Assembly (NCBI GenBank): GCA_946631295.1
Contig: CAMOZY010000001.1
Location: 62,001 to 126,000 of the forward strand
Length of the DNA stretch: 64,000 nucleotides
Source of the DNA: an uncultured Lachnospiraceae bacterium
GTDB taxonomy: Bacteria; Bacillota; Clostridia; Lachnospirales; Lachnospiraceae
Direction of reading: 5' to 3'
The notes beneath the pieces were generated by a model. It did no database searches. It was given only the letters and a program-made list of their open reading frames with translations, and was not told the DNA's origin. Position 1 is the first letter of the stretch. Each line of letters starts with the position of its first letter. Positions 11,930-63,299 of this stretch are shown here, piece after piece. Made by a program: the position numbers and the translations under genes.

Positions 11930-12180
11930 GGTACATCCGCAAGGCGCCCAGACCACGCCGGGCGTGTATGTACCGGTAACTGAATAATGAATCGCTTACA
12001 GGTGCCCGTATCCGGGCCAATACCATACAGATTTTTGTACGGATATGGATACGGGAGAATAGGGAAGCGGGTGAGATTCCCGCACGAACGCGTCGCCGTG
12101 TCGGTTTATGGCATTCACCTTTTGTCCGGCAGACAAGACCATTGAAGAAAGCCAGGGTTTACATGAATCCGGGCGCTTTG
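11930..12180 (+). ncRNA. Cobalamin riboswitch (approximate limits)
   Basis: ACAGGTGCC...GGGAGAATAGGGAAGCGGGTGAGATTCCCGCACGAACGCGTCGCCGTG...AGCCAGG core, upstream of B12-transport-like genes. Confidence 0.85.
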
Positions 12181-12340
12181 AGAAGGAATGTGAAATGTCG
12201 CTTTAAAAACCCCAGCCGAAAGACCTGCCTGTTTGTACTTTTTCAAGGTAAACTGCAATCAGTTTACTTTTGATCCCGCGTAATGGATCCGGAAAAACTT
12301 TAATCATGCACCGATCGCAAAGTGCATTATTTTTGTTGTG

Positions 12341-23945: not shown

Positions 23946-24031
23946 GGAGACGTATCGAAGCGGTCATAACGGGGCGCACTCGAAATGCGTTTGCCCTCCG
24001 GGGCACGAGGGTTCGAATCCCTCCGTCTCCG
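23946..24031 (+). tRNA. tRNA-Ser (anticodon CGA)
   Basis: GGAGACG...CACTCGAAATG...long variable arm CCCTCCGGGGCACGAGGG...GGGTTCGAATCCC...CGTCTCCG; 7-bp acceptor stem pairs. Confidence 0.93.
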
Positions 24032-48594: not shown

Positions 48595-49521
48595 TCAAAC
48601 AAATGACATAAGAAATGTTATTGAGATAAAGGAAAAGACGGTCGTGACAATGATTCCTCTTGAAAGGACGTCCGTACGCTCCCCTGTCTTCTCAGCCTGA
48701 ATCATCGGAAGGTTTCCGACGGGCACTGCACACATAAGGCAGAAGGTCCTGATCATCTCCTGAGGAGCGGATATAGCACTGAGAGCCAGGACCGTGATCA
48801 CCGGAACTGCCACCATCCTTATAAGGATAAAGAACCACAGATGCAGGTCTTTAACCGCCTCAAAGAATCTGCTGCGCCCGACTGCGGCACCCAAAAGTAT
48901 CATTGACAAAAAGACAGTAGGTGCTCCGATATACTCCACAGTCTTTACAACAGGCTCAGGGAACCTCAGATCAAACCAGAATATGACAAGTGCCAGAATC
49001 GACATCAGGACTCCCGGACTGAATACCTTCTTGAGGTTCATTTTTTCCTTTCCGGAGGAAAGTGCGATCACACCATGCGTGTAGAACAGCAGATTATAGA
49101 AGACATTACAGATTATCACATACAGCATGGCATTTTCCGGAAGAATAGCCCTGGCTACAGGTATTCCAAGGAAACCGACATTTCCGTATATGGTCATCAT
49201 CGTATAGAATTTTCTTTCATCCTTAGGAACACGAATAATGAGGGGAATCACATAGGCAAGCACTATGAACAGAAAATAAACCGCTGCGCTGACTCCCACG
49301 CCTGTCAGAAAATCCTGATGAGTAACAGTAATATTTCCGGTCATGATAGTTGATACTATAAGGGCCGGATTACATATATCAACAATAATACGCGATATTA
49401 CCGGTGTGGACTTTTCGTCCAGCACCTTTCTTTTCTGAAGCCAGATACCGATACCGACAAGTATCGCGATCACTGACATCTGTTTTATGACCACTAAACT
49501 TCCCACATTGATTCCTTCCAA
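48595..49521 (-). CDS. AEC family transporter (auxin-efflux-carrier type)
   Basis: ~10 TM, GVSAAVYFLFIVLAYVIP, YGNVGFLGIPVARAIL, MLYVIICNVFYNLLFYTHGV. Confidence 0.88.
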   Translation of the reverse strand: MEGINVGSLVVIKQMSVIAILVGIGIWLQKRKVLDEKSTPVISRIIVDICNPALIVSTIMTGNITVTHQDFLTGVGVSAAVYFLFIVLAYVIPLIIRVPKDERKFYTMMTIYGNVGFLGIPVARAILPENAMLYVIICNVFYNLLFYTHGVIALSSGKEKMNLKKVFSPGVLMSILALVIFWFDLRFPEPVVKTVEYIGAPTVFLSMILLGAAVGRSRFFEAVKDLHLWFFILIRMVAVPVITVLALSAISAPQEMIRTFCLMCAVPVGNLPMIQAEKTGERTDVLSRGIIVTTVFSFISITFLMSFV

Positions 49522-49715: not shown

Positions 49716-51614
49716 ATGGCCAAAAGAAAAATAGCAGTATTCTCAACAGGATGGGCCGCAGATATCCTTGCTCAGTTCATGAGAGGAATGAGTGAGGAAG
49801 TCTCATCCGGCAATACAGATTTATATCTGTTCATGTGTTATGCGAACCCCGGCGAGATCAATGGTGCCCTCACCGGCGATCTGAACATCATGAATCTTCC
49901 GGATCTGTCATTATTTGACGGAGCTGTTGTTGTGTCCAATCTTCTGGATTACCCTGTTGAGCGTAGTGAGATTTTTGAAAAATGCAAGAAAGCAGGAATA
50001 CCTGTCGTAAGCCACGGACTTGTTGTGGATGGTGCATGCAGTGTTATTACCGAGAACGGTATCGGGATGCGCGATCTTACCAGGCACCTTATTGATAAGC
50101 ACGGCGTTAAGAATATCATATTCATAGCCGGTTCCCCCAATAACGGAGATTCAAACGACAGACTCGCTGCCGTAAGGGAAGTCTGTAAGGAAAAGGGACT
50201 GGACTTTTCAGATGACAATGTCGCATATACAAACTGGGATCTTACAAACTGCGAAAATATCATTTTAGACGCCTGCGAAAGAAACGAAATGCCGGATGCG
50301 TTCATATGTGCCAATGACGAACTGGCCATGACCGGCATTGTTGCACTTGAGAAGTACAACCTGGAGGCTCCGAAGGATGTGATAATCACAGGTTTTGACT
50401 GCCTGCAGGAAGCGCAGACCTTCTATCCTTCAATAGCATCCGTCAATCAGAATCTCAAAGAGCACGGCAGAAAATGTGCAGCCCTTATCAACGATATGAT
50501 CGATGGACGTGAAGTGGAACCTCTTATCAAACTTCCATGCTCATTCTGTGAAGGCGAGAGCTGTGGCTGCAACTGTCCCGAGGAAGCCGCAAACAGAAGG
50601 CTCAGATCGGGCACCATCACCTTCAAGAATATCCAGCTGGCAAATGCCGCAACCTGGCATACTATTGCTATCGAACGTACCATAATGGGATGTGATTCCT
50701 ATACCGAGATCAGGCGTGCCGTAACCGGAATGCTCTCAAGAACACATACCTTTGAAGGAAGCGATTTCCACATCCTTTTTGACCCTTCCTGTTACAGATC
50801 CGAGATTACAACCGAAGTCAGCAATGAAGACTTTGGTTACAGCGAGAAGATGGACGTTATCTTCTCAATGAAGGACAATGCCATCCAGAATATCCGCTCT
50901 ATCAGAACCAAGGACCTTGTCCCGGGAATAAGCGATGATGATCCCAATCATCTCTATATCTTTATCCCCGTTCACGAGCGCGGGATCAAGATCGGATACA
51001 TTGTTTTTGTTGACTGCTACGACAAGATCGAATCAAAGGCAATCCGTGAATTCCTTGAAAGATTCAATTCAGCAGTTGAAAAAGCAAGAAAGGCCATGTA
51101 CCTCAAGGCCATCAACGATTCCGTCAGAGAGCTCTCTCATATCGATGCACTGACACATGTCAAGAACCGTACCGCATATGAATTAAGGCTCGAGGAATTC
51201 AGGAAGAAGGCAGAGACAAAGAACAAGCCCGAATTCGGTATCGTTCTGTTCGACCTCAACAACCTCAAGAAGGTCAACGATGAACTCGGACACTATTCGG
51301 GTGACGAATATATCAAGAACTCCTGTAAGCTCATCTGCTCAATATACAAGAACAGCCCCGTATTCAGGATCGGCGGCGATGAATTCGTTGTAATCCTGGA
51401 TGGAAAGGCATATCTGCAGAGAAACGAGCTCATCAGGGAATTCGAGACCGAAATGAACATAGTCATGAACAGCGACCGTCCTCTCGAAGAAAGAGTCTCC
51501 ATCGCATACGGTATGGCTGTATTCGAAGAAGACGATACTGTGGACAGTGTTGTAAAGCGCGCGGACGTTGCGATGTACAACACCAAGAAAAAGATGAAGG
51601 CCGGAAGAAAATGA
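49716..51614 (+). CDS. Cytosolic LacI-type ligand-binding domain fused to GGDEF diguanylate cyclase
   Basis: KRKIAVFSTGWAADILAQFMRGM..., ANDELAMTGIVALEKYN, CSFCEGESCGCNC, FDLNNLKKVNDELGHYSGDEY, RIGGDEFVVIL; no signal peptide or HTH. Confidence 0.9.
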   Translation: MAKRKIAVFSTGWAADILAQFMRGMSEEVSSGNTDLYLFMCYANPGEINGALTGDLNIMNLPDLSLFDGAVVVSNLLDYPVERSEIFEKCKKAGIPVVSHGLVVDGACSVITENGIGMRDLTRHLIDKHGVKNIIFIAGSPNNGDSNDRLAAVREVCKEKGLDFSDDNVAYTNWDLTNCENIILDACERNEMPDAFICANDELAMTGIVALEKYNLEAPKDVIITGFDCLQEAQTFYPSIASVNQNLKEHGRKCAALINDMIDGREVEPLIKLPCSFCEGESCGCNCPEEAANRRLRSGTITFKNIQLANAATWHTIAIERTIMGCDSYTEIRRAVTGMLSRTHTFEGSDFHILFDPSCYRSEITTEVSNEDFGYSEKMDVIFSMKDNAIQNIRSIRTKDLVPGISDDDPNHLYIFIPVHERGIKIGYIVFVDCYDKIESKAIREFLERFNSAVEKARKAMYLKAINDSVRELSHIDALTHVKNRTAYELRLEEFRKKAETKNKPEFGIVLFDLNNLKKVNDELGHYSGDEYIKNSCKLICSIYKNSPVFRIGGDEFVVILDGKAYLQRNELIREFETEMNIVMNSDRPLEERVSIAYGMAVFEEDDTVDSVVKRADVAMYNTKKKMKAGRK

Positions 51615-55110: not shown

Positions 55111-56703
55111 TCAGTTGTTTGTTCCAACAATGGCATTGATTCCGGGGAACGGATCATTCATAACATTCACATACCAGCTGTCATAGTTGAAGGGATACAT
55201 ATCAGCATATCCGGTTTCCCAGTTTACACACATGGAAGGAAGATCAGATTCGGAAACATCGTAGAAATCATCGAAATCAGATCCCCATGCGCGGAGGAAA
55301 AGCTTTATCTCAGCCCAGGTTCCGTCATCACCATAGAGCCATATATCAGCTGAAATGTAGTCAGGAAGGAGCTGTCCGTCTGCTTCGGGATCGATGTAGA
55401 AATAGGTATCCTCAACATCAAATCCGATGACATCTCCGGATTCTGACATAAGCCAGCCGATATCGGTGGAATCCTCAAGGAATTGCATGTAGCAGTCAAC
55501 ATCAGTATCACCTTCGCTGTCTACAAGTTCGAAATGAACCTGATCATCACCTTCGAAGGTAAAGGTTGCAAGGCAGTCATAAGCATATCCGATATTATCT
55601 GCATAATCGTCGCATGCATCACATACGATCCAGAAGCCGTACCAGCCTCTCTCCCACCACTCGGCATAGGAACTGAAATCAGTGGTTCCGTTTCCTGTGG
55701 AGGTGTTGGGCACTTCAGTGGTCATATATTCCACATTGATGGTAAGCGTGTTAAGAAGCTCTCTGAAATCCTCAGTTACAGCATCATCATAGCTTGAACC
55801 TGTGGTATAGATATAAACAGCCTGCATCTCACCCCAGTTGTTACGATATGTCACATCGAGGGGAACGATGAACTCTGCACTGATATCTCCCCAGAAATCC
55901 TCATAGGTGTAGAGATATCCGGTAAGATATCCTACACTGATGGTTTCTACCTTGGGATCATAATACTGGATGTCAGCAATCTTCTCATCAACGAAATCCC
56001 ATCCGCTGAGTGAAGTTACATAAATGATCTGCTTTCCGTCTGCAGATACAAGATCACCGAACTCCGATGCAGGATCTGCCTCGCGAAGTCCTGAACCGTA
56101 CTCAACACTGTAAAGTCCGTCGCCGTAAGTAAATACTCCGCCGACAGCAGTATTTCCGCCGCCTGAAACTGAAACAGGCTCTGCATCCGAATCAACTGAA
56201 AGAGATGCAAGAACTGCAACGGGAATATCATCATCGTACTTGAAGCCGTCACTTGTAACAAGGATGATCTTCTTATTGACCTTGCCGTAAACAGCGAAGG
56301 TAGTCTTATAAGAAGCACCTGTCCACTTTACGCCTTCGATGGTGAACTCAACATCCTTAGCCTTCTCTTCACCATCCTTGAAATCCTCGATGAACTGCTT
56401 TGCATCGTCCTTTTCTACAACCGTAAAATAAAGATGATTGCCATCCTCATCCTCAAGAACGATACTGCTCTCGGAATCACCTTCCTCTGCTTCTCCTCCC
56501 TTGGGAACAAGAAGTGTGAAAACACCGATGGTATCTTCCTTACCCTTTATCTCGGGAACTTCGAGAGAATCATCATCTTCTTCTTTAACCTCTGTCTGAG
56601 GTTCTCCGGTTTCCTTGCCACAGCCTGAGAGGGCAGCTGCTGCCATCATAAGGCTTAAAATGACGGCAAGGCCTTTTTTACGAAACGTCATTTTTTTGCT
56701 CAT
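55111..56703 (-). CDS. Lipoprotein of unknown function (paralogue of 61677-63299)
   Basis: Lipobox ALSGCGKE; shares VGVFTLLVPKGxEAE, GFKYxDDIPxAVLASxxVD, W(W/Q)RGWYGxWI, MxPFNY(D/E)SWY blocks with its paralogue. Confidence 0.75.
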   Translation of the reverse strand: MSKKMTFRKKGLAVILSLMMAAAALSGCGKETGEPQTEVKEEDDDSLEVPEIKGKEDTIGVFTLLVPKGGEAEEGDSESSIVLEDEDGNHLYFTVVEKDDAKQFIEDFKDGEEKAKDVEFTIEGVKWTGASYKTTFAVYGKVNKKIILVTSDGFKYDDDIPVAVLASLSVDSDAEPVSVSGGGNTAVGGVFTYGDGLYSVEYGSGLREADPASEFGDLVSADGKQIIYVTSLSGWDFVDEKIADIQYYDPKVETISVGYLTGYLYTYEDFWGDISAEFIVPLDVTYRNNWGEMQAVYIYTTGSSYDDAVTEDFRELLNTLTINVEYMTTEVPNTSTGNGTTDFSSYAEWWERGWYGFWIVCDACDDYADNIGYAYDCLATFTFEGDDQVHFELVDSEGDTDVDCYMQFLEDSTDIGWLMSESGDVIGFDVEDTYFYIDPEADGQLLPDYISADIWLYGDDGTWAEIKLFLRAWGSDFDDFYDVSESDLPSMCVNWETGYADMYPFNYDSWYVNVMNDPFPGINAIVGTNN

Positions 56704-56924
56704 AATATCTCCTTTTCTAAAACCGGTTCGTAAGAACACTATCGAATATTTTACAATAATTTAATAATTTTTAAAACCCTAATATGCATTTATTCGGAAA
56801 AAAGAGGCTTCAAATGACATAATCTATCTTTTTTACTGAAGGCTGACACTGTATAATGTATTGGATATGGCAGCTATACAGGAAGCTGACCTCGGGCTAC
56901 AGGAATCTGTAAAGGGGGCATAAT

Positions 56925-57863
56925 ATGGATTACAGACAATATCTGATTGACTACTGGAATATGATAGACAAGGGAAACGCTCAGGACTACTGCAACGGAG
57001 TAGATCCGAAGGGCTTCAGGGCCGAAAAGCACATCCCCTATCTTGGAGATTATGATCCGGCTCATATGCTGAATCTGTATTATCCCGAAGGATTTACCGC
57101 TTCAGGCGGCAAACTCCCTTCGATCATTTATATACACGGCGGCGGATGGCTGTACGGAAGCCCTGATGTTTCAGAAAGATATCTGGGATATCTTGCATCA
57201 CAGGGCTTTGCGGTTATGGGAATGAACTACAGGCTTTTAGACAGGGCAAACCTTCGTGACGAGATTGCCGATATTTTCGATGCAATGCACTGGCTCGGAA
57301 AGCACGGGGCAGAGAGAGGATTTGACCTTTCAAAAGTACTTGTCTGCGGTGATTCTGCAGGCGGACATCTTACCATACTCTCGACATGCGTAAGTTTCAG
57401 CGAAAAACTGCAGGCCATCTACAATGTTAAACCTCTGCCCTTTAAAATTACCGCATGCTCCGTGAGCAGTCCTGTCACAGAGACATCCGAACTCTATATT
57501 TCGGATGCAAAGGGAACTCCCAACGGAGAAGGAACTGCTAAGGCTTATCTTGATATGATGCTCGGTTTTCAGGGAGATGCAGCTCCCTGGAACGGACATA
57601 TGGCAGCTTCGGAAACCATTCCGGGGATTGATATGCCACCCATATATATAATCGATTCCGAGATGGATTCACTCAGCATGCATACCGGATATCTCCTCGA
57701 TACGCTGGAGAAGAACGGCTGCAGATATGAAAAGATCTTCTGGACAAAGGAAGAGGGCATTCACCTTCTTCATGTATTTAATATAAGTCACTGGGAGTGG
57801 AAGGAAAGCATCGACGCCAATAACGGAATGCTTGATTTCTTCAGAAGGGTAAATGAAACGTGA
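56925..57863 (+). CDS. Alpha/beta hydrolase (esterase/lipase-like)
   Basis: YIHGGGWLYGSPDV oxyanion motif, VCGDSAGGHLT nucleophile elbow. Confidence 0.9.
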   Translation: MDYRQYLIDYWNMIDKGNAQDYCNGVDPKGFRAEKHIPYLGDYDPAHMLNLYYPEGFTASGGKLPSIIYIHGGGWLYGSPDVSERYLGYLASQGFAVMGMNYRLLDRANLRDEIADIFDAMHWLGKHGAERGFDLSKVLVCGDSAGGHLTILSTCVSFSEKLQAIYNVKPLPFKITACSVSSPVTETSELYISDAKGTPNGEGTAKAYLDMMLGFQGDAAPWNGHMAASETIPGIDMPPIYIIDSEMDSLSMHTGYLLDTLEKNGCRYEKIFWTKEEGIHLLHVFNISHWEWKESIDANNGMLDFFRRVNET

Positions 57864-59697
57864 TCTTCTTAAGAAAATTGTATTTGGTCTGAGTGTTCTG
57901 CTTGTTTTTGTACTTGTACTGATATCCTTCGGCATCATATGGATGTACAGGATCTGGGGAAGAAACCTTACCATCAATGACTTCCTGTTCCAGGTAACGA
58001 TGCTGGAGGGCACAGGCTCCGATATGGTCATCAGCTTCCTGCTCGGTGCGCTTCTCCCTGCGGTTCTTCTTACCGGAGGACTTGTTTTTCTTTTCTTTTA
58101 TATCCGCAAAAAAAGTATATACGGCAGGCATGTGTTCATGTGGAAGTTCACGCTTGCCGCAGTCACTGTTGCATCATGGTCGGTTCTGATCTTCGGGATC
58201 AAATGGCTCGGAGTCGATTCATATTTCGGATTTGCGGGCTTCAGAGCTTCACAGGAAGAGGCCTATGTTCCACCCGTGATTGAAGAGATCACTCCGGTTG
58301 TTCCGGTCACTGCAGATCCCGAAAACGAGATGATTCCGGGCCTATGGGATGAACTTCAGAATTCCCTTACTGCTGAGATGACTCCCTGGGAAAAGGGATC
58401 TTCAAGAGATTTTGTCGAAAGCTATTATGTAGATCCTTCGACCGTATCACTCAAATTCCCTGAAGAAAAAAGAAATCTCATATATATATTCCTCGAATCC
58501 ATGGAAGTGACCTTTTCCGACACTTCCGTAGGCGGAGCTTTTGACGTTAATGTCATTCCGAGGCTTACCGCCCTGTCACAGGAAAACGAAAACTTCTCCG
58601 GATCATACGGGGAGGGAACCCTTCTTGACGGCGGATATGCTTATAACGGCGGAACCTGGACGATGGGTGCGATCTTCTCACAGACATCAGGACTTCCCCT
58701 TCAGACGGGTGGTATCGGACGAAATGATATGGACACCCAGGAGGCATTCTATCCGACCATAACCACCATCGGTGATATTCTTGAAGACGAAGGTTACAGA
58801 CAGATATTTCTCATAGGGTCTAATGCCGTTTTCGGAGGAAGACAGTTATATCTGTCGAACCACGGAAATTATGAGTTCAGAGATCTTGTCTGGGCAAGAA
58901 GGACGGGCCATATAACACCGGGATACTATGTCTGGTGGGGATACGAGGATCATAAGCTTTTTGATTTTGCAAGGGAAACAGTTCTTGAACTTGCGGAAGG
59001 CGAAGAGCCATTTAATCTTACAATGCTGACCGTAGACACTCATATGACAGGGGGATATACCTGTGACCTGTGCGGAGATGAATTTGAGAACAGCTACTCC
59101 AATGTTTATGCATGCTCAGACAAACAGGTTACGGAATTTATTTCCTGGCTTCAGGAGCAGGATTTCTATGAAAACACGACCATTGTGATCGTCGGGGATC
59201 ACCCAACGATGGACGCCTCCTATTGCAGAAATATTGATCCGAGTTATGTAAGAAGAGTTTATACCTGCATCATCAATTCCCCTGTTGAGCCTGTAAGAAA
59301 TGCCTACAGATCATATTCAACTCTTGATATGTTCCCCACGACGCTCACTGCACTCGGTGTTGAGATACCCGGAGGCAGACTGGGCCTTGGAACAAGCCTT
59401 TACACAAATCAGAGAACCCTTACGGAAGAACTGGGATATACATCTCTTTCATCATCGCTTTCCAGATACTCTTCCTATCTTGACGGACTAGGCAGTATCG
59501 TCCCCGTAGATCCTTCCGGAAACACAATAAGCATCGGAGAAGACGGAACGATAACAGTACTTTCACCGGACGGAAACACTGCAGTCATTTATCCCGACGG
59601 AACACAGATGATCACAACGCCCGAGGGCACCCAGACTGTCATTGCCCCGGACGGAACAACCACCATAACTGAAAATCCCGGACAGATCATGCCCTAA
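57853..59697 (+). CDS. LTA synthase family membrane sulfatase with repetitive C-terminal tail
   Basis: YIFLESMEVTFSD, NGGTWTMGAIFSQTSGLPL, VDTHMTGGY, IVGDHPTMD motifs; TM N-term; overlaps 56925-57863 by a few nt. Confidence 0.87.
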   Translation: MKRDLLKKIVFGLSVLLVFVLVLISFGIIWMYRIWGRNLTINDFLFQVTMLEGTGSDMVISFLLGALLPAVLLTGGLVFLFFYIRKKSIYGRHVFMWKFTLAAVTVASWSVLIFGIKWLGVDSYFGFAGFRASQEEAYVPPVIEEITPVVPVTADPENEMIPGLWDELQNSLTAEMTPWEKGSSRDFVESYYVDPSTVSLKFPEEKRNLIYIFLESMEVTFSDTSVGGAFDVNVIPRLTALSQENENFSGSYGEGTLLDGGYAYNGGTWTMGAIFSQTSGLPLQTGGIGRNDMDTQEAFYPTITTIGDILEDEGYRQIFLIGSNAVFGGRQLYLSNHGNYEFRDLVWARRTGHITPGYYVWWGYEDHKLFDFARETVLELAEGEEPFNLTMLTVDTHMTGGYTCDLCGDEFENSYSNVYACSDKQVTEFISWLQEQDFYENTTIVIVGDHPTMDASYCRNIDPSYVRRVYTCIINSPVEPVRNAYRSYSTLDMFPTTLTALGVEIPGGRLGLGTSLYTNQRTLTEELGYTSLSSSLSRYSSYLDGLGSIVPVDPSGNTISIGEDGTITVLSPDGNTAVIYPDGTQMITTPEGTQTVIAPDGTTTITENPGQIMP

Positions 59698-59718: not shown

Positions 59719-61620
59719 TTATGCCTTGCCCTTGATGACGGCTTTGTTATGATACATCTTCTCGTCGGCTCTTCTTGTTATGTCCTGAACCGATGTATCC
59801 TCTCCGTGTACATATTCCGAAATACCCGCTGCGATTGAAATATAATCTTCAGGTATCGGAAGAGTAGCGGTATATGGACTCATCCTGTTCTGAAGTCTTT
59901 CAAGAAGTTCATCGCGGCTGTTATAATCATCGCCGCTGAGAACAGCAATGAACTCATCGCCTCCGACTCTGTAAACAGGACTGTGCTTGAATACATTACA
60001 GATAAGCCTGCAGCATCTGATCAGATATTCATCACCTGCCTCATGTCCCTTGGAGTCATTGATGATCTTAAGATTATTGACATCAAACATCGCAATTGCA
60101 AACTGAACAGCCGCACCGGAATTGATCTCTGACTGAAGGAAATTCTCCTTATCCTCATATGCCATACGGTTGTTGACATTAGTAAGAGGATCTCTCTTCA
60201 TAACTTCCAGAAGTCGTTTGTTTATAAGATCCAGACTGAGTGCATGTCTGAACTTATCAAAAACAAGTCCCATCCTGGACTGGTATGTCTGAAGTGTATG
60301 ATCATATACCTTGCTCATACAGTCTCTGAAAACAACATATCCAAAGGTCTCATCACCCTCGTGAAGAGGAAGGAACACATACAGATGATTGCTTCCGTCA
60401 TCTCCGTAACCCGGGAAAAGATTGGATGCCCTAAACTCATCCCCCTTAAATTCCACACCGTTTTCAGTCGAATATATAATCTCAAGATGATTGCCGTATC
60501 CGTTCTTGCGGAGCCTTATATTCGGGTCGTTTATCGACAATCCGAAATTCGGGTCAAGGAGAATATGGAATGAATCCCCTTCAAATGTATGATTCTGTAC
60601 AAGGAGATTGTGGAGCTTTTGTACAAACTCCTTATATGTCAGACATGAAAGAACCGTTGAATCGATCAGGTTCAGTTTTCTGTTAAAGTAAGTATTGGCT
60701 GCACGCTTTGTAAAGGCTTCTCTTCCGATCCTTCTTCTTATCTTGTCACTGTTTCTGAATTCATAACAGTTGCAGCTTTCTCCCGGAATAAACTGACAGG
60801 GAACTATAACGGATTCTTCAGGTGCCTCTCCGCCAAAAATCTTGATCCAGAGTTTTCCGCATGCATCTCCCATCTGGGCAAAGCACTGATCAACCGAGGC
60901 GATCGAGGGATCAAATATCTGGCTGTCATCGATCAGATCATATCCCGTAACGAGAACATCACCCGGAACGTTAACACCGTTATCATTGAGGGTGATGGTC
61001 GTCTCCATTGCAAGACCGTCATTTGCACAGATGAAAACATCCGGTAGTTCCTTTCCGGACTTACAGTATTCATTTATGAATTTTGTAGCCTGGGCGTTTT
61101 CCCATTTTGTATAGAATACTTCCTTAAGGTCTTCGGACCTGCCGCATCCTTCGAGATAATCCTTCACCGCCTTGAGTCTGAGCTCCGAATCAAGTGAATC
61201 CTCAGTTCCCGCAAGAAATACTACATTGCGGACATTATGCTTTTCCTGAAGATGCTTACACATATCAAGAGTTGCAACATAATTATCGGACCCAATATAC
61301 GTAGCACCTTCACGTCTTGCGCCCTGCATGACAACAGGAACTCCCGCTGCCTTACTGCGCTCCATTATCTTCTCGATCTCCTCGTGGAAATCCAGGCCGC
61401 TGCCGAAAATGACAACACCATCGAAATCATTCAGGTCAGGGAGATTGAAGATGTTCAGTTCACCATGCTTATTGGCCGGAGTATCAACATATGTGGGATA
61501 GCATGTAAACAGCATTATATCCACTCTTTCCTCAGCGAGTGAATCCTGCATTCCCGTCAGAAACTGTGATAAGATCTCGCAGCACCATCCTGTTGTAAAT
61601 ACGGCAATTTTCCTTTTCAT
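59719..61620 (-). CDS. Cytosolic LacI-type ligand-binding domain fused to GGDEF (paralogue of 49716-51614)
   Basis: KRKIAVFTTGWCCEILSQFLTGM, CQFIPGESCNCYEF, MFDVNNLKIINDSKGHEAGDEY, RVGGDEFIAVL. Confidence 0.9.
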   Translation of the reverse strand: MKRKIAVFTTGWCCEILSQFLTGMQDSLAEERVDIMLFTCYPTYVDTPANKHGELNIFNLPDLNDFDGVVIFGSGLDFHEEIEKIMERSKAAGVPVVMQGARREGATYIGSDNYVATLDMCKHLQEKHNVRNVVFLAGTEDSLDSELRLKAVKDYLEGCGRSEDLKEVFYTKWENAQATKFINEYCKSGKELPDVFICANDGLAMETTITLNDNGVNVPGDVLVTGYDLIDDSQIFDPSIASVDQCFAQMGDACGKLWIKIFGGEAPEESVIVPCQFIPGESCNCYEFRNSDKIRRRIGREAFTKRAANTYFNRKLNLIDSTVLSCLTYKEFVQKLHNLLVQNHTFEGDSFHILLDPNFGLSINDPNIRLRKNGYGNHLEIIYSTENGVEFKGDEFRASNLFPGYGDDGSNHLYVFLPLHEGDETFGYVVFRDCMSKVYDHTLQTYQSRMGLVFDKFRHALSLDLINKRLLEVMKRDPLTNVNNRMAYEDKENFLQSEINSGAAVQFAIAMFDVNNLKIINDSKGHEAGDEYLIRCCRLICNVFKHSPVYRVGGDEFIAVLSGDDYNSRDELLERLQNRMSPYTATLPIPEDYISIAAGISEYVHGEDTSVQDITRRADEKMYHNKAVIKGKA

Positions 61621-61676: not shown

Positions 61677-63299
61677 TTAGTTTGTTTGAAGTGCAGTACC
61701 TTCTATGGCATAAAGTCCGGGAAACGGTTCATCCATGATACCGATATACCAGCTTTCATAATTGAACGGGAACATGTCTCCGTAAGAAGCCCTTACTTCC
61801 TCACCGTCTCTTCTATAGATGAAGGGAAGATCATCCTCATCCAGATCACAGAAATCTGAAAAATCAGATCCCCACGGACGAAGGACTACTCTTATCTCAA
61901 CCCACTCATAATCCTCATCATATACATATGTATCAAAGAAGAGGTAATCCTGAAGGATAAACATTGTGGATTCCGGATCCACGTTGATCCATGTCTGTCC
62001 GAGTTCGGATCCGAGAATATTTCCTCTGTCGCCTACCAGCCATCCGGAAAGGGTCCCGTCCGAATACCAGGACATTTCAACATCCATATCGAGATCTCCG
62101 TCGGTATCAACAAGCTGGAAATGAACGATTTCTGTTCCGTCAAATCCCGGTTCAAAATCAAATGTTGCAAGACAGTCATAGGAATATGTGACAAGATCTG
62201 TATAAGCCGGCGATGCATCGGCGTAGATCCACCATCCGTACCAGCCCCTCTGCCAGTAATCCCTGACTGCATCTGAAGCATATTCAGCCTGTGAATAACG
62301 GGTCTCACCTGTAAAGCACTCGCCATTAAGTGCAATGCTGTCGATAACTCCCATGAACTCATCACTGAGTAATGTATCCATATCGGGAGCATAGCTGCAG
62401 ATGAAAACTCCCATTAATTCGGCAGCTGTATTGGAGTAAACATAGTCCAGTGGAAGAATGTATTCAGCAACATACCGTCCGTCATATCCTTCATATGTAT
62501 ACAGATACCCGGGCATTCCGTTTGAATAGATGGTCTCTACCTGATAATCACAGTTTTCCTCTATCGAGTACATCTCATCATCTATCAGGGCCCAGCCGCC
62601 AAATCCGCTGACGTAAATCGTCTGGGATCCGTCATGTGATACAAGGTCTCCTTCTTCCGATCCTTCAGTCTCACGAAGACCAGGTCCGTAATGTACTGAA
62701 TAGATCCCGGCACCGTAAACAAATTCTCCGCCGTTTGAAACTGCAGTACCTCCGCCAAGATTAACGGTATCGGCATCAGGATCAACCTGGATTGATGCAA
62801 GTACTGCAAGGGGGATATCGTCGGTATATTTAAATCCTTCGCCTGTTACAACTACGATCTTCTTGCCTATCTTGGCCCAGATAACAAATTTTTTCTTATA
62901 AGAGCAGCCCTTCCATGTGGTACCGTCCAAAGAGAATTCTATCTCCTTGTAGCTCTCATCCCCGTCCATCGTATACTCAACTAATTTCTTAGCATCATCC
63001 TTTTCGGTAACCTGAAGAATAAGTGCATTTAGGTCTTCATCAAGCAGCATGATCTCAGAGTCGGAAACAGTCGTTTCAGCTTCCATTCCCTTGGGAACAA
63101 GAAGTGTAAATACACCGACCTCTTCTTCCTTTCCCTTTACCTCGGGAACCTCGAGTGCATTCTCGTCCTCTTCTTCTGTCTTCTCCTCGGTCTCAGCCTG
63201 TGCGGGTTCTTTTCCGCAGCCGGACATGGTACATGCCGCCATCATCAGACCAAGCATAACAGCAAGTCCTTTTTTTCTAAGAGTCATCATCCTGCTCAT
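61677..63299 (-). CDS. Lipoprotein of unknown function (paralogue of 55111-56703)
   Basis: Lipobox TMSGCGKE; shared sequence blocks with 55111-56703. Confidence 0.75.
   Translation of the reverse strand: MSRMMTLRKKGLAVMLGLMMAACTMSGCGKEPAQAETEEKTEEEDENALEVPEVKGKEEEVGVFTLLVPKGMEAETTVSDSEIMLLDEDLNALILQVTEKDDAKKLVEYTMDGDESYKEIEFSLDGTTWKGCSYKKKFVIWAKIGKKIVVVTGEGFKYTDDIPLAVLASIQVDPDADTVNLGGGTAVSNGGEFVYGAGIYSVHYGPGLRETEGSEEGDLVSHDGSQTIYVSGFGGWALIDDEMYSIEENCDYQVETIYSNGMPGYLYTYEGYDGRYVAEYILPLDYVYSNTAAELMGVFICSYAPDMDTLLSDEFMGVIDSIALNGECFTGETRYSQAEYASDAVRDYWQRGWYGWWIYADASPAYTDLVTYSYDCLATFDFEPGFDGTEIVHFQLVDTDGDLDMDVEMSWYSDGTLSGWLVGDRGNILGSELGQTWINVDPESTMFILQDYLFFDTYVYDEDYEWVEIRVVLRPWGSDFSDFCDLDEDDLPFIYRRDGEEVRASYGDMFPFNYESWYIGIMDEPFPGLYAIEGTALQTN

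Follow-up and report, generated by a model that had tools for sequence, protein, structure and literature searches.

The gene at positions 49716-51614 of a 64,000-nucleotide stretch of DNA (the window) from an uncultured Lachnospiraceae bacterium encodes a protein that, judged from its sequence, is well supported as a soluble LacI-type sensor joined to an apparently active cyclase without an RxxD inhibitory site (I-site). The protein is probably a diguanylate cyclase under the control of a small ligand inside the cell, with a carbohydrate as the leading candidate. What really marks its family is SCGC, a motif with two cysteines where the binding domain ends, not the five-cysteine cluster that a sequence-only reading of this gene had proposed.

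Domain architecture of the sensor cyclase

The open reading frame is real and complete, with TTGAGG ahead of the start. The 632-aa product matches the Pfam families Peripla_BP_3 (E=5.5e-22), Peripla_BP_1 (3.6e-14) and GGDEF (8.2e-28), and has no Pfam match above cut-offs beyond the binding and GGDEF domains. Its features are:

49716..51614, + strand: CDS, 632 aa; LacI-type binding domain, SCGC, middle domain, GGDEF
49716..50558, + strand: LacI-type periplasmic-binding-fold domain, residues 1-281 (Pfam, Foldseek, conservation)
50538..50576, + strand: CSFCEGESCGCNC, residues 275-287, including the non-conserved outer Cys 275, 278 and 287
50559..50570, + strand: SCGC signature, residues 282-285, immediately following the binding domain
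50571..51134, + strand: middle domain, residues 286-473, no Pfam family, weakly GAF-like, with a terminal long helix into GGDEF
51135..51599, + strand: GGDEF diguanylate cyclase domain, residues 474-628; GGDEF motif at 51372-51386; no RxxD I-site

Pfam and hydropathy agree with the earlier description of a cytosolic LacI-type fold without helix-turn-helix or signal peptide. The LacI helix-turn-helix (PF00356) gave no Pfam match in the protein, whose chain begins directly with the first core strand. Hydropathy revealed neither a signal peptide nor a transmembrane helix; the highest 19-residue mean (1.52) falls within the binding domain and is below TM-like strength. Scans for promoters and terminators near the gene returned sites no more numerous than in shuffled sequence.

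A conserved SCGC signature

We measured conservation across 44 full-length or near-full-length family proteins, which outside the nearest orthologues are mostly 20-45% identical to the target. The core of the cysteine-rich segment is conserved to a degree comparable to the GGDEF motif (S282 44/44, C283 43/44, G284 40/44, C285 42/44), while the outer positions are rarely Cys (C275 in 13, C278 in 3 and C287 in 4 of the 44). On this non-conservation we reject a five-Cys metal cluster, and no set of at least four conserved Cys per chain, of the Zn or Fe-S type, was found; of the cluster only C283 and C285 are conserved. The claimed cluster is present in the target but is not kept as a unit, and what survives of it is S282-C283-G284-C285.

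As a second test, 76 proteins were collected with a profile built from only the middle domain, beginning after the motif. [ST]CxC occurs in 74/76 of these and [ST]CGC in 70/76, with partial independence, as many also belong to the 44-protein set. About 0.002 [ST]CGC per protein is expected by chance, against 0.94 observed. In an alignment to a LacI ancestor, the motif begins with the Ser of 'RES', which closes the LacI core. It was absent from 4/4 LacI-type regulators in the examined loci, a small control.

The motif lies exactly where ordinary LacI proteins end, as would suit a mere structural turn between the binding and middle domains with no switching role. Near-invariant cysteines, two of them, are rarely needed for a mere turn, and we regard this reading as quite possible without calling it probable. 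Somewhat unlikely is a redox or metal switch, in which a disulfide, or a site of four Cys shared between the two chains of a dimer, would gate the cyclase alongside the ligand. It would account for C283 and C285 nearly matching GGDEF conservation in very diverged sequences, and the hosts are anaerobic; each chain has just two such Cys, the additional Cys of the target are not conserved, and two proteins depart from the motif, L032 reading STGE (both Cys lost) and L033 SCGG (second Cys lost). The metal or redox role suggested earlier loses the five-Cys cluster from which it was drawn, which homologues do not keep, and may still rest on the conserved CxC within SCGC. The switch reading is about the motif alone, and neither it nor the turn reading conflicts with a ligand-controlled cyclase.

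The middle domain

The middle domain was taken as the 190-residue region between the binding domain and GGDEF. Neither GAF nor any other Pfam family was found in it among 41 homologues, and a profile search returned no sequence relative in the PDB. When compared by hhalign with a GAF profile built from related genomes, its second half gave a weak match (probability 57%, P 1e-4), while control profiles (PAS, binding domain/PBP, GGDEF) scored <1%. At low confidence, the predicted order is three helices followed by strands and, at the C-terminal end, a long helix; the AlphaFold model of the isolated domain (pLDDT 53) was too poor for a fold search. The earlier 'GAF-like' label thus keeps a weak GAF-specific profile match and gains nothing from Pfam or the PDB; the domain is likely GAF-like, a weakly supported assignment that is not established.

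Distribution and outputs of the input module

The genome itself carries four members of the family: the target, a paralogue in the window and two proteins on contig C2. Middle-domain proteins were found in 92/397 sampled Lachnospiraceae genomes. In a phylum sample they occurred in 3/399 genomes, one of them outside Lachnospiraceae, in a search that very distant relatives could escape. The combination of binding domain, SCGC and middle domain is a Lachnospiraceae input module, with a large family in gut and rumen members.

Architecture classes were assigned from motif patterns, and Pfam was run on eight of the long proteins, including two GH53 fusions. Among the 76 proteins, 55 have GGDEF as their only output, 16 carry EAL and 5 have GGDEF followed by a GH53 galactanase; long frames were fetched deliberately, and these counts are not frequencies. 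In the 16 EAL proteins the GGDEF domain is found by Pfam and the GGDEF motif is missing in the pattern search.

The five GH53 fusions (L104, L106, L108, L109, L113; e.g. L109:2480-5878, - strand) are single ORFs that read LacI-type sensor, SCGC, middle domain, intact GGDEF and GH53 galactanase. The L104 and L106 frames run off contig ends. The fusions form one clade (support 100/99), and their presence in five genomes makes an assembly error unlikely. This clade is separate from that of the target; the fusions therefore support 'carbohydrate' for the module and do not name the ligand of the target.

EAL proteins with the input module and a degenerate GGDEF include L069, L105, L107, L111, L112, L115-L120, L122 and L123. 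Several EAL proteins have an extra C-terminal extension of 200-400 aa, with no Pfam family in the scanned L107, L112 and L120; that of L069 is repetitive and beta-rich by eye. L121:4013-8083 (- strand) is a frame of 1357 aa that has EAL ahead of sensor-GGDEF, together with a TM-like segment, and may represent two fused genes. Other c-di-GMP components of the genome number about 27 GGDEF, 15 EAL, one PilZ and one c-di-GMP-I riboswitch.

The binding domain and its candidate ligand

The whole-chain AlphaFold model has a mean pLDDT of 71, and Foldseek matched it in the PDB to the cores of CcpA, LacI, RbsR and PurR (E down to 1.3e-16), with CcpA best. The target shares with these LacI/GalR regulators the ligand-binding core and the ligand residues: R149 (44/44), N200 (40/44) and D228 (44/44) are conserved in the family alignment (n=44), and we take them to correspond to the LacI ligand positions R197/N246/D274. 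Unlike the regulators, it has no DNA-binding domain and extends past their usual C-terminus into SCGC, the middle domain and the cyclase. Conservation of the LacI ligand residues and the galactanase fusions of relatives make a carbohydrate ligand plausible; of the earlier proposal of sugar sensing this much holds.

CcpA has the same fold, yet acts mainly via a protein partner. It is in our estimate unlikely that the binding domain responds to such a partner or to a metabolite other than a sugar (nucleoside, sugar phosphate, signalling molecule), in the manner of CcpA and PurR. CcpA is the top fold match, with PurR and LacI also high, and the locus keeps its envelope-related neighbours, as this alternative would have it; it fits less well with the 90-100% conservation of the R/N/D ligand positions and with the galactanase fusion of relatives.

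The cyclase domain

Family members with a GGDEF output conserve D513, K518, N521, D522, GGDEF and K624 at 95-100%, which bears out the earlier report of an intact GGDEF and suggests that the target is an apparently active c-di-GMP synthase. The reported lack of an RxxD I-site was also correct: the position reads YKNS in the target, and RxxD is missing in 39/40 family proteins, the target included, and present in 1/40. This inhibitory site is common, not universal, among GGDEF cyclases and is not needed for membership. A GGDEF domain that is regulatory or inactive in vivo is very improbable, for the catalytic residues are all intact and near-invariant in GGDEF-output members, and nothing specific favours it, although the EAL clade has degenerate GGDEF copies.

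Proposed mechanism

Binding of an intracellular ligand would close the binding domain, and the hinge movement would pass through the SCGC segment to a dimerising GAF-like domain and its long helix. Movement of the helix would alter the way in which two GGDEF domains meet and so change the rate of c-di-GMP synthesis. SCGC would couple hinge to linker, either as a structural element or as one that can switch (disulfide or metal). As the I-site is missing there would be no product brake at that site, and output would follow input.

We count the occurrence of the same module on EAL and GGDEF-GH53 proteins, and the other c-di-GMP components of the genome, as support for a ligand-controlled cyclase. 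Points against it are the placement of the GH53 fusions in another clade, the envelope and transport neighbours, the protein-partner mode of CcpA and the pLDDT of 53 for the middle domain. A bolder form of the proposal seems rather improbable: Lachnospiraceae would have in the module a hitherto undescribed cytosolic cassette for carbohydrate sensing, raising c-di-GMP through GGDEF or lowering it through EAL and gated at the CGC pair by redox state or metal, and the sensor-cyclase-galactanase chain of one clade would read galactan breakdown inside the cell.

Relation to known systems

To our knowledge, few direct links between sugar and c-di-GMP are known. If the proposal is true, soluble cyclases and phosphodiesterases resembling sugar repressors would give fibre-degrading gut and rumen bacteria a simple route from intracellular sugar to lifestyle decisions, with the two residues of SCGC as a sharp experimental handle. 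Public databases name such proteins 'substrate-binding and GGDEF domain-containing', a phrase not found in the open-access papers searched; nor did the open-access literature searched yield a description of a LacI-type sensor with GGDEF in Lachnospiraceae.

The pairing of Periplas_BP with a c-di-GMP enzyme, which the target shares, is already known: a 2022 review lists Periplas_BP, with no function from experiment, among the putative sensory domains of such GGDEF/EAL proteins, and points out that LacI regulators have it too and that sugars are possible ligands (PMC8846402). The PBP clan is described there as periplasmic, whereas the target is soluble and carries the SCGC/middle module. CdgH of V. 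cholerae and RmcA of P. aeruginosa likewise place a binding-protein-type sensor on a c-di-GMP enzyme, but use amino-acid-type PBPb/SBP_bac_3 domains, periplasmic in CdgH (PMC5431781, PMC8846402), in contrast to the LacI-type, cytosolic domain of the target. EIIA-Glc/PdeS of V. cholerae, cited in the review, couples sugar state to c-di-GMP, as proposed for the target, but does so through PTS phosphorylation of a separate protein that acts on a phosphodiesterase (PMC8846402). The new elements are the SCGC signature, a module common to opposite outputs and the GH53 fusion, for which no description was found in the open-access literature searched. We rejected one candidate precedent for GH53-GGDEF (PMC5457731), whose protein is a HAMP-GGDEF labelled GH53, not a fusion.

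Gene neighbourhood

The neighbours of the target in the window that recur in relatives are:

48595..49521, - strand: AEC-type transporter (Mem_trans), divergent neighbour; adjoins the orthologue in several relatives
56925..57863, + strand: alpha/beta-hydrolase-like esterase (sequence motifs); in a pair bracketed by both cyclases in relatives
57853..59697, + strand: sulfatase-superfamily protein, by eye similar to LTA synthase; the other gene of that pair
59719..61620, - strand: paralogue, 633 aa, 37% identical, same architecture with SCNC

At three loci of relatives (L022, L023, L055) the orthologue and paralogue bracket the sulfatase-superfamily and esterase-like genes, with the AEC transporter, an MBOAT acyltransferase and its partner upstream. 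The window has the same neighbour genes in rearranged order. A search around the orthologues found no sugar-utilisation operon, the nearest genes being envelope and transport genes, and modification of the envelope or of a surface polymer is a possible context of the locus. Two lipoprotein-like genes of about 540 aa (55111-56739 and 61677-63299) are paralogous by eye, the first having no Pfam family. Elsewhere in the window, Rfam places a cobalamin riboswitch at 11998-12232 and a tRNA at 23946-24031.
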